A stretch of 64,000 bases of DNA from Acidobacteriota bacterium (lineage in GTDB: Bacteria; Acidobacteriota; Terriglobia; Bryobacterales; Bryobacteraceae), in NCBI GenBank assembly GCA_029776225.1, contig JAKOTR010000053.1, forward strand, positions 434,001 to 498,000, given 5' to 3'. Below the pieces are notes generated by a model. That model was given only the letters and a program-made list of their open reading frames with translations. It did no database searches and was not told the DNA's origin. Position numbers and translations under genes: made by a program. Below are positions 8,298 through 38,518 of the stretch, one piece after another; within the stretch, counting starts at the first letter, position 1, and the number at the start of each line of letters is the position of its first letter.

Positions 8298-8774
8298 TCA
8301 GGCCCCGGAGACCGCCGGAGGCGATAGCGTGCCGGCGGCGGTCATCTCCTGAACGATCTCCACGGCGTCCCGCACGAACTTGGGGCATCGCGTACCGAAA
8401 AGCTTCTCCTGCCTGGCCTGCGCGATGCCTTCGGGTGTGCTGATGTTACAGCCCAGCAGTTCAGAGCAGAGCAAGGAGCCGTTCCGCTCTTTAAACGCGC
8501 GCATGAATTGCCGGGCCGCTTCGTAAGTTTTTTCCTTTTCGGTACGATTCTCCGCCGGGCTGATGCTGCGCTGGGCGAGGCCGATCGCCATGAGGGCTCC
8601 GGTCACGCAGCCGCACGTCCCGGCGGAGCGCGCCATCCCGCCGCCGAAGGCCGCCGCGACTTTCAGCGCCACGGCGGCATCGATGCCCCACGGCCCGGCC
8701 AAAGCCGAAAACACGGATTGGGAGCACGAGTACCCTTCCTGAAAACGGGCTTCCGCAACTTCCGCAAGGCTCAT
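8298..8774 (-). CDS. C_GCAxxG_C_C family (putative redox) protein
   Basis: A 158-residue member of the C_GCAxxG_C_C family, small proteins with conserved cysteines thought to be redox active or metal binding. Cysteines lie at 17 (GYSCSQSV), 54 and 56 (GTCGCVTGALM), 103 and 109 (LLCSELLGC) and 130 (TRCPKF), matching the family pattern; the glycine-rich FGGGMAR segment precedes the central pair. It follows the Thi4-like gene by 19 bases on the same strand, so the two are almost certainly cotranscribed. A link to sulfur or electron delivery for thiazole synthesis is only inference. Confidence 0.85.
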   Translation of the reverse strand: MSLAEVAEARFQEGYSCSQSVFSALAGPWGIDAAVALKVAAAFGGGMARSAGTCGCVTGALMAIGLAQRSISPAENRTEKEKTYEAARQFMRAFKERNGSLLCSELLGCNISTPEGIAQARQEKLFGTRCPKFVRDAVEIVQEMTAAGTLSPPAVSGA

Positions 8775-8793: not shown

Positions 8794-9558
8794 TCACCTC
8801 GCCAGGATCATTTCGGCAACGCGCTTGCCGGATAGCAGCATACCGCCGAAGATCGGCCCCATGCGCGGCCCTCCAAACGTGGTGCACACGCTCATTCCGG
8901 TAACCCACAACCCGGGATAGACCTCAGCCACCCGCTCGACAACAAACGACTCTCCCGCGGCTGCGTACATCGGTCCCTCTCCTGGCGCAAGCGCCGCATC
9001 CAGAAGCCCCCGCTTGCGAAGGTGTTGGACCGCGGCCGCATCGTGCCCGGTCGCATCGATCACCGCGCCGGCGGATAGCACGAGCGGATCCACCGGCAGG
9101 GCGCCAGCGATTGTCGTGCGGTTGGCCACGATTCCCGTCACCCTGTTGTCGCGCACGCAGAGGTCCTCCAACGTCACCAGATTCAGCAGGACCGCCCCCG
9201 CGCGGAGCGCCTGGATGCAAAGGCCGCAGGCCAGTTCCGCCGCATCCGCGACGTACAACCCGTCTTGAGGAACAAACCGGATGCATGCAGCTTCGAGAAT
9301 CGGAAGCGCCTCCTTCTGCACGACGACCTGGTTCATTCCCATCGCGCCGCCCCAGATGCCGCCGCCGGGGCTCAGCCTCTTTTCGATGATCGTGACCCGC
9401 TTGCCCGCGCCTGCAAGACAAGAGGCGGCAACGAGGCCGGAAGGCCCGGCGCCTGCGATAATCACATCACTCTCGATCCGGTCCGCCAGCTTGCGATAGT
9501 AACTCTCAACGATTGCTTTCGAAATGGCGGTTTCCGTAATTGCGTTTTCAAGCGGCAT
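8794..9558 (-). CDS. thi4: Thi4-type thiazole synthase (ADP-thiazole), non-Cys variant
   Basis: A 254-residue FAD/NAD-fold protein of the Thi4 family, which makes the thiazole half of thiamine from NAD and glycine plus sulfur. The start at 9558 is preceded by a strong GAAGGAGAA; a longer open frame to 9669 lacks a ribosome site. Dinucleotide fold: IIAGAGPSGLVAA (residues 33-45), then IIEKRLSPGGGIWGGAM, DATGHDAA (168-175) and the C-terminal RMGPIFGGMLLSG. At the position of the sulfur-donating cysteine of yeast Thi4 (CMDP) or the histidine of archaeal sulfide-dependent enzymes (HVDP), this protein has Pro155 (LPVDP). It should therefore need free sulfide or another sulfur source, if active. 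I see no TPP riboswitch upstream. Confidence 0.85.
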   Translation of the reverse strand: MPLENAITETAISKAIVESYYRKLADRIESDVIIAGAGPSGLVAASCLAGAGKRVTIIEKRLSPGGGIWGGAMGMNQVVVQKEALPILEAACIRFVPQDGLYVADAAELACGLCIQALRAGAVLLNLVTLEDLCVRDNRVTGIVANRTTIAGALPVDPLVLSAGAVIDATGHDAAAVQHLRKRGLLDAALAPGEGPMYAAAGESFVVERVAEVYPGLWVTGMSVCTTFGGPRMGPIFGGMLLSGKRVAEMILAR

Positions 9559-37105: not shown

Positions 37106-38518
37106 TCAGATGGCCGCCAGGACTCTGCGCGCTGCGAAGTATCCGCACATGCCGTGCACGCCCACGCCGGGCGGCGTCGATGCGGAGCACAGGTACAGGC
37201 CCTTCACCGGCGTTGAGTACAGCATTCGGGTAGGGCGCAGGAAAAACTGCCGCACGGTTGCCGCACCGCCGGCGATGTCGCCGCCGGCGAAATTTGCGTT
37301 GCGCCGCTCGATTTCCGCCGGAGTCATGACGCTTCGGGCCAGAACGCGGCGGCGAAACCCCGGGGCAAACCGCTCGATCTGGTTTTCGATTCGTTCCAGC
37401 ATGTCCGCGCGGGAGCCGTTCGGCACGTGGCAGTAGGCCCAGGCGGTCTGCGCCCCGCCGGGAGCGCGCGTGGAGTCGAACAGGCTTTGCTGAGCAAGCA
37501 GCACGAATGGCCGTTTGGGAGGGCTCCCCGCCCACACCTCGCGCTCGGAGAGGGCGATCTCCTCCAGCGTGCCGCCGAGATGCACCGTGGCGGCGCGCAG
37601 GCACTCTTCGGCCCGCCACGGGATCGGGCCGTCCAGCGCCCAGTCCACTTTGTACCCCCCCGGACCGTAACGGTAGCAAAGCAGCTTTTTTCGATACCAC
37701 GCCGGGAATCTATGGCCTGCGATGCGCAGCAACGGGCGCGGCGAGAGATCGCACAGGATCGCGCGCGCCGGCGGCAACTCGTCGATCGAGCGCACCTGAG
37801 TTCCGGTCACGATCTCGCCTCCCAGCGAACGAAGATGCGCGGCCAGCGCATCCGCGATTTTCTGGGATCCGCCGCGCGCCAGGGGCCAGCCCACCACGTG
37901 CGCGAGAAGGCCGAGTCCCAGTCCGAATCCCGCCGTGAGCGGCTTTGCGAGCGGCAGCATGCTGTGCGCCGCCAGGCCGGCCAGCAGCGCCCGGGCCCGC
38001 TCTCTGCGGAAGAGGCCGGCGGCCAGCCCGGAAGCCGAACGAAGCGCTTGCAACCCGAAGCGCGCCAGGGCCAGCGGGCGCCGGGGGAGTCGAAGCGATC
38101 CGAGAACCGAGGCTTGCAGTCTCTCCCAGTCCTCCACCAGCGGCCGCATAAGAGTGATGTAGGACTCTCCGTCCTCACCCAGCTTTTCGGCAGTGCGTTC
38201 CAGCGAGCGCTCGAGGACTGCGGCCGTTCCGTCATCGAACGGATGGGCTAGGGCGGCGGGGGATTCGATCCACTCCAGTCCGTAACGCTCCAGCGGCAGC
38301 GTGCGGAAAAACGGCGACGCGGCTGCCAGCGGATGGATGGCGGAGCAGACGTCGTGGACGAAGCCGGGCAGCGTGAGGGCAGCCGAGCGCGTCCCGCCGC
38401 CGATAGACTCCTCGCCCTCGAACACCACCACGGACAGCCCCGCCTGCGCGAGCACGATGGCCGCCGCAAGCCCGTTCGGCCCCGACCCGACTACGATCGC
38501 ATCCCATTTGCCCGGCAC
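37106..38518 (-). CDS. Phytoene-desaturase-like FAD-dependent oxidoreductase
   Basis: A 470-residue flavoprotein of the Crt/amine-oxidase superfamily. FAD-binding VVGSGPNGLAAAIVLAQAG and VVFEGEESIGGGTRS at the N-terminus; C-terminal PPGVGVHGMCGYFAARRVL closes the FAD site. It is closest in style to the broad carotenoid-desaturase/isomerase-like group whose substrates are mostly unassigned; no carotenoid genes are nearby. It precedes the CoA-transferase gene by 33 bases and is likely cotranscribed. Confidence 0.85.
   Translation of the reverse strand: MPGKWDAIVVGSGPNGLAAAIVLAQAGLSVVVFEGEESIGGGTRSAALTLPGFVHDVCSAIHPLAAASPFFRTLPLERYGLEWIESPAALAHPFDDGTAAVLERSLERTAEKLGEDGESYITLMRPLVEDWERLQASVLGSLRLPRRPLALARFGLQALRSASGLAAGLFRRERARALLAGLAAHSMLPLAKPLTAGFGLGLGLLAHVVGWPLARGGSQKIADALAAHLRSLGGEIVTGTQVRSIDELPPARAILCDLSPRPLLRIAGHRFPAWYRKKLLCYRYGPGGYKVDWALDGPIPWRAEECLRAATVHLGGTLEEIALSEREVWAGSPPKRPFVLLAQQSLFDSTRAPGGAQTAWAYCHVPNGSRADMLERIENQIERFAPGFRRRVLARSVMTPAEIERRNANFAGGDIAGGAATVRQFFLRPTRMLYSTPVKGLYLCSASTPPGVGVHGMCGYFAARRVLAAI

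Follow-up and report, generated by a model that had tools for sequence, protein, structure and literature searches.

A probable non-Cys Thi4 thiazole synthase with proline at the sulfur-relay position, and the gene neighbourhood of its clade

The locus

The window, by which we mean the whole stretch of 64,000 nucleotides analysed here, comes from an Acidobacteriota bacterium of the family Bryobacteraceae. It carries a gene for a Thi4 protein and, just downstream on the same strand, a gene of the C_GCAxxG_C_C family. The features to which the following text refers are these.

8794..9558, minus strand: Thi4 gene, 254 amino acids, start ATG at 9556-9558 (open reading frame, profiles, alignment and model)
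9094..9096, minus strand: codon of Pro155 (alignment to solved Thi4s)
9088..9090, minus strand: codon of Asp157, putative metal ligand (alignment to TaTHI4 Asp160)
9043..9045, minus strand: codon of His172, putative metal ligand (alignment to TaTHI4 His175)
8884..8886, minus strand: codon of Cys225 (clade alignment; common in the clade, but replaced by Ser or Ala in 13 of the 52 Pro rows)
8298..8774, minus strand: C_GCAxxG_C_C family protein, putatively redox-active, 19 bases downstream of Thi4

About 11 bases 5′ of the Thi4 start codon, a ribosome-binding-like stretch, GAAGGAGA, was recognized by eye, and judging from the spacing, the Thi4 gene and the C_GCAxxG_C_C gene probably share an operon. 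The Thi4 product scores 206.2 bits against the Pfam Thi4 profile (cut-off 26.2) and 248.9 bits against TIGR00292, the model of sulfide-dependent ADP-thiazole synthase (cut-off 148.3; in a control, 5 of 14 named genomes matched it). Since Cys-type sequences match TIGR00292 too, such a match alone is no proof of sulfide use. In suicide THI4 enzymes, the sacrificial Cys stands two residues ahead of the DP motif, and in the window protein this place is occupied by Pro155. Another open reading frame of the window, at 37106-38518 on the minus strand, matches Thi4 weakly (4.8e-6) over about 40 residues of the profile, and it probably encodes a different FAD-type enzyme and not a second Thi4.

Residue 155 and the active site

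The best solved relatives found by HMMER are Thi4 structures, headed by the Thermovibrio THI4, 7RK0. Pro155 is aligned with Met158 of 7RK0, with a His of 4y4m, 4y4n and 6hk1, and with a Cys of the plant enzyme 1rp0, and the segment from Pro155 to His172 runs against residues 158-175 of 7RK0 without a gap. An AlphaFold2 model built from 52 sequences has a mean pLDDT of 93.4 and superposes on 7RK0 with a Z of 37.5 (1.5 A over 249 residues); when it was used for a fold search, the top eight rows were all Thi4 entries with Z of 31.4-37.5, and the ninth row had a Z of 20.0. Because the superposition output gives ranges only, it is the gap-free sequence alignment from which the equivalence of Pro155 and Met158 is taken. 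The metal ligands of 7RK0, Asp160 and His175, correspond by alignment to Asp157 and His172, both invariant in a 52-row alignment. Likewise, Glu59 and Arg61 match its substrate contacts Glu56 and Arg58, which touch ribose, and the C-terminal Arg232 matches the contact Arg239. Ser178 of 7RK0, which contacts adenine, is replaced by Ala175. Thus, two claims of the first-pass annotation, which had read the sequence by eye, hold in the alignment: a Pro does occupy the sulfur-relay position, and a search for loss of other active-site residues found the known catalytic ones kept.

How does the protein compare with characterized Thi4s? With Thermovibrio ammonificans THI4 (TaTHI4, 7RK0), a non-Cys and aerotolerant enzyme, it has in common the fold, the Asp and His ligands of the metal, the Glu, Arg and Arg substrate contacts and the lack of an active-site Cys, but it differs in Pro155 (Met158), Ala175 (Ser178), Met75, Arg147 and a deletion of one residue ahead of the site. 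The archaeal His-type enzymes of M. jannaschii (4Y4M) and M. igneus (4Y4N) are alike in family, in fold (Z about 36) and in the DP and GHD motifs; they have His, not Pro, at the site, and sulfide use is biochemical for them whereas it is predicted for the window protein. The suicide THI4s of yeast (3FPZ, Z 31.4) and plants (1RP0, Z 34.1) share the fold, but the window protein is without their sacrificial Cys. Finally, it can be likened, by residue description only, to published Pro-type entries with Pro at the position of the sacrificial Cys (Hwang 2014, archaeal; Joshi 2021).

The first-pass annotation had called a Pro at this site a combination that it did not recognize. However, it was already in print: Pro in some archaeal Thi4s is mentioned in one paper (Hwang 2014, PMC4215014), and Pro is among the 28 non-His sequences of a later survey (Joshi 2021, PMC8454699). 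The same survey reports that TaTHI4 with Met158 changed to His, Lys or Cys complements similarly to the unmutated enzyme, and its authors conclude that Met158 has no catalytic role (PMC8454699). Deletion of thiG in E. coli was complemented by 16 of 23 non-Cys enzymes, for which His, Met, Leu, Tyr and Ser, without Pro, are the residues named (PMC8454699). Activity of a Pro enzyme is thus a prediction, since Pro is not named in Joshi's complementation set, and a search of open-licence papers found no assay of a Pro-type Thi4. Methanogen Thi4s are cited as biochemically shown users of sulfide (Joshi 2021, PMC8454699), and non-suicide Thi4s are wanted for crops, according to the same paper. Pro155 itself is confirmed at the level of sequence; it is real, already known and probably neutral. 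The residue at the site is neither novel nor, on present evidence, a required sulfur relay, and a Pro there, taken alone, is ordinary.

Distribution of Pro and His in the clade

A genome search found Thi4 in 35 of 396 genomes of the phylum, and six of these 35, including that of the window, have the Pro type. Within the family of the window, Thi4 is present in 6 of 237 genomes, five with Pro and one with His; most of the few Thi4s of Bryobacteraceae thus share the residue, which the first-pass annotation had named as a finding that would support it. In two other members of the genus, 88% and 77% complete, Thi4 was not found. It is to be noted that one contig of a genome of this family (G400, also G586 in coordinates) is titled Arcobacter sp. 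(L066, L141 and L146), and this title looks wrong.

A survey of homologues was built on the best 80 of 481 relatives from a contig scan, a sample biased towards the window protein. After removal of identical copies, the alignment of 110 rows, largely fetched by similarity, has 53 with Pro, 47 with His, 7 of Cys-type, and one each with Ala, Asp and Leu at the site. Glu, Gln or Asn, which seemed to stand at the site in seven rows, was rejected as such; these rows are really Cys-type (ITCVDP), displaced by an insertion. As 53 of 110 rows share it, Pro155 is no lone sequence error. A quick tree was made from 108 of the 110 rows, with the fragments L130 and L046 excluded and the column of the site itself kept, and 45 of its 105 inner branches are weakly supported. 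One clade of 65 rows (SH-aLRT 98) contains 51 Pro, 13 His and 1 Ala; by record titles, it spans Planctomycetota, Acidobacteriota, Omnitrophota, Sumerlaeota, Hydrogenedentota, Lentisphaerae and others, and most of its rows are marked by Met75 and Arg147 and by the one-residue deletion ahead of the site. One Pro row, L133, falls outside the clade. Seven changes of the Pro/His label are needed on the tree; for Pro, the well supported branches alone require four. A His row, L101, and a Pro row, L102, are sisters (SH-aLRT 99), and each bears the title Bryobacteraceae. Since Pro and His flip across the clade, a lineage-defining catalytic role for the site is unlikely.

Nine of 56 genomes that carry a Thi4 of the clade have two Thi4 genes. 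The second copy is of Cys-type in eight of the nine and has Leu at the site in the ninth (L159); in L153 it is broken, and its Cys-type call comes from the C-terminal motif. One in-frame stop each, which may reflect a sequence error, decay or recoding, occurs in L120:6001-6756 (TGA), L085:79-822 (TAG) and L153 (TAG). L085 and L120 stand outside the 110-row alignment, and their genomes are within the 56.

Thiamin genes around the clade

Six of the 56 genomes came from the phylum search, and the others represent 50 of 62 listed loci. ThiC was found in 52 of the 56 and ThiG in 24. Among the 41 with a Pro-type Thi4, 20 have ThiC without detected ThiG, 18 have both and 3 are without ThiC, the genomes of the relatives being mostly MAGs in which absence of ThiG may mean incompleteness. 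By hand count, 17 of the 20 ThiC-only genomes have a single Thi4; G398, G411 and G419 have a second copy, which in two of them is of Cys-type and in the third is broken, though similar to the Cys-type. ThiG is present in 20 of the 41 (18 with ThiC too), that of the window included, and Thi4 is thus not needed for thiazole in these 20. Among genomes with other Thi4 types, ThiG was found in 1 of 12 (12 of 29 from the phylum search). The simplest reading of these gene contents is that the clade would be a working thiazole synthase.

The genome of the window has ThiG (1.2e-110), ThiC (3.1e-196), TMP-TENI (3.7e-56) and ThiS (8.0e-23), and because ThiG, ThiS, ThiC and a ThiE-like gene are present, Thi4 would be an accessory second route there. 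Control of the gene by a riboswitch was considered and dropped: no Rfam match at gathering score lies in the window, and no TPP riboswitch was found in its genome, with 150 of 247 first-look candidates scored. The immediate neighbours that were tested, the C_GCAxxG gene and a DinB-like gene, are not thiamin genes.

A metal-sulfur neighbourhood at relatives

In 69 loci of the clade, the neighbours of Thi4 include metallo-beta-lactamase (17 loci), radical SAM (16), MinD-like Fer4 ATPase (15), ARMT1-like (15), NUDIX (14), Nitro_FeMo-Co (13), Mrp (11), sigma-54 activator (11), DUF134 (8), PNPOx-like (6), TrmO (6) and C_GCAxxG (3) genes. In the ORP operon of Desulfovibrio, reportedly described by Fievet in 2011, a Nitro_FeMo-Co protein, MinD-type Fer4 ATPases, Mrp and a sigma-54 regulator are found together, and this composition is partly seen at relatives such as L048, L061 and L071. 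Against the MrpORP model, one of the Mrp proteins reaches 374.5 bits, below the cut-off of 450, and covers model positions 1-257 of 365. Two papers describe MrpORP as a carrier of Fe-S and assign the orp genes specifically to anaerobes (PMC6345978, PMC3897727).

Seven core families (Mrp, NifX-like, CbiA-Fer4, MBL, ARMT1, DUF134 and C_GCAxxG) were picked because they recur in loci of the clade, and the query proteins were drawn from the same loci. Among loci of at least 6 kb, at least one of the seven occurs in 34 of 60 in the clade (none in the other 26) and in 0 of 22 outside it, the clade loci being mutually related and some of the control loci having short, one-sided flanks. As the families accompany 28 of 48 Pro-row loci and also 4 of 9 His-row loci, the link is with the clade and not with Pro. 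In the titles and abstract openings of the open-licence literature, no Thi4 neighbourhood with orange-protein, NUDIX or DUF134/C_GCAxxG genes was reported. This anaerobe-type metal-sulfur neighbourhood of the clade is, we think, a more interesting lead than Pro155.

Does the window share it? When twelve neighbour families were sought in the window, C_GCAxxG alone was found, so the composition of an ORP operon is not seen there, and Nitro_FeMo-Co has no match in its genome. Beyond the C_GCAxxG gene, neither the neighbourhood of the clade nor the NUDIX association described below is a feature of the window. The C_GCAxxG_C_C gene, which is near Thi4 in the window, in L102 and in L101 (3 kb off and on the opposite strand), was rejected as a conserved partner, being present in just the 3 of 69 loci.

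What does the window protein do?

From the computed family, fold, kept ligands, Pro/His interchange and genome context, we infer activity, sulfide use and metal: the window protein is likely a non-Cys, sulfide-dependent Thi4 thiazole synthase that turns over many times. By analogy with TaTHI4, NAD and glycine would give a glycine-imine adduct, bound to a metal that has Asp157 and His172 as its ligands; the source of sulfur would be free sulfide or else a sulfide metabolite, and ADP-thiazole (ADT) would be released as the product. Pro155 would stand in for a residue that is important in suicide enzymes only. In the cell, the protein would supplement ThiG/ThiS as an accessory route, perhaps where oxygen is low and sulfide is present. 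It is a member of a known non-Cys Thi4 kind, and the novelty that the first-pass annotation had drawn from Pro155 was wrong. That annotation had also suggested that sulfur is handled by another route or that the protein has been repurposed; the neutral Met158 mutants of TaTHI4, the interchange of Pro and His in one clade, and 17 of 41 Pro-type genomes with ThiC, no detected ThiG and a single Thi4 all speak against this.

Some observations fit a sulfide-dependent synthase less well. The clade deviates from other non-Cys Thi4s at positions 75 and 147 and by its one-residue deletion, and Ser178 has become Ala175; moreover, ThiG occurs in 20 of the 41 Pro-type genomes, the search of the window's genome gave no TPP riboswitch, and the tested neighbours are not thiamin genes. 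Has the clade then left thiamin synthesis, making an ADT-like or other NAD-derived product for the orange-protein/Fe-S neighbourhood? The core families, seen beside Thi4 at 34 of 60 loci in the clade and at 0 of 22 outside it, and the coexistence of ThiG in 20 of 41 Pro-type genomes against 1 of 12 with other Thi4 types, would favour this; we hold it to be unlikely, as the known catalytic residues are kept and as ThiC occurs without detected ThiG in 20 of 41 Pro-type genomes, of which 17 have just one Thi4. That the gene is an acquired one, decaying or non-functional in this organism, we regard as quite unlikely: in the window, the reading frame is open, a ribosome-binding-like stretch precedes it and the catalytic residues are intact, which must be set against the scarcity of Thi4 in the family (6 of 237) and its lack in the two other genus members (88% and 77% complete), the organism's own ThiG, ThiS, ThiC and ThiE-like genes, and an in-frame stop in a related copy outside the window, L120. 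Very unlikely indeed is an alternative relay in which Cys225, replacing the Asn of most other His-type Thi4s, donates or carries the sulfur. All of the first six Pro-type rows have Cys225, as do 39 of the clade's 52 Pro rows, but 10 of the 52 have Ser and 3 have Ala. With 7 of the clade's 12 His rows having it too, Cys225 does not track Pro, and it was dropped as a substitute donor.

A NUDIX gene upstream of Thi4

Among the relatives of the window protein, all of the 14 clade loci that bear a NUDIX gene (of 69) have it 5′ of Thi4 and on the same strand, for example L069:5455-5949. In 12 of the 14, nothing that was tested lies between the two genes; a PNPOx-like gene separates them in L084 and L110. 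No NCBIfam model matches the NUDIX protein of L069 at E 1e-10, and the solved chain nearest to it, 3smd, bears only the title MutT/NUDIX family protein. Papers of 2014 (PMC4215014) and 2017 (on cassava, PMC5853225) take the ADT hydrolase to be a NUDIX enzyme, unidentified or uncharacterised, and the gene upstream of the clade Thi4 is a candidate for it. It is possible, although we propose it tentatively, that the Pro/His clade is a sulfide-dependent Thi4 wired to a MrpORP/orange-protein set supplying metal or sulfide, with the upstream NUDIX protein hydrolysing ADT to thiazole phosphate. If so, a NUDIX gene in line with Thi4 would be a concrete candidate for that step, and the Fe-S/metal-sulfide gene company would hint at how non-suicide Thi4s may obtain their sulfur and metal in cells with little oxygen. 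NUDIX matches also lie by 3 of 44 other Thi4s (L028, L031 and L032), two of them from one genus, but these are weaker (35-37 bits).
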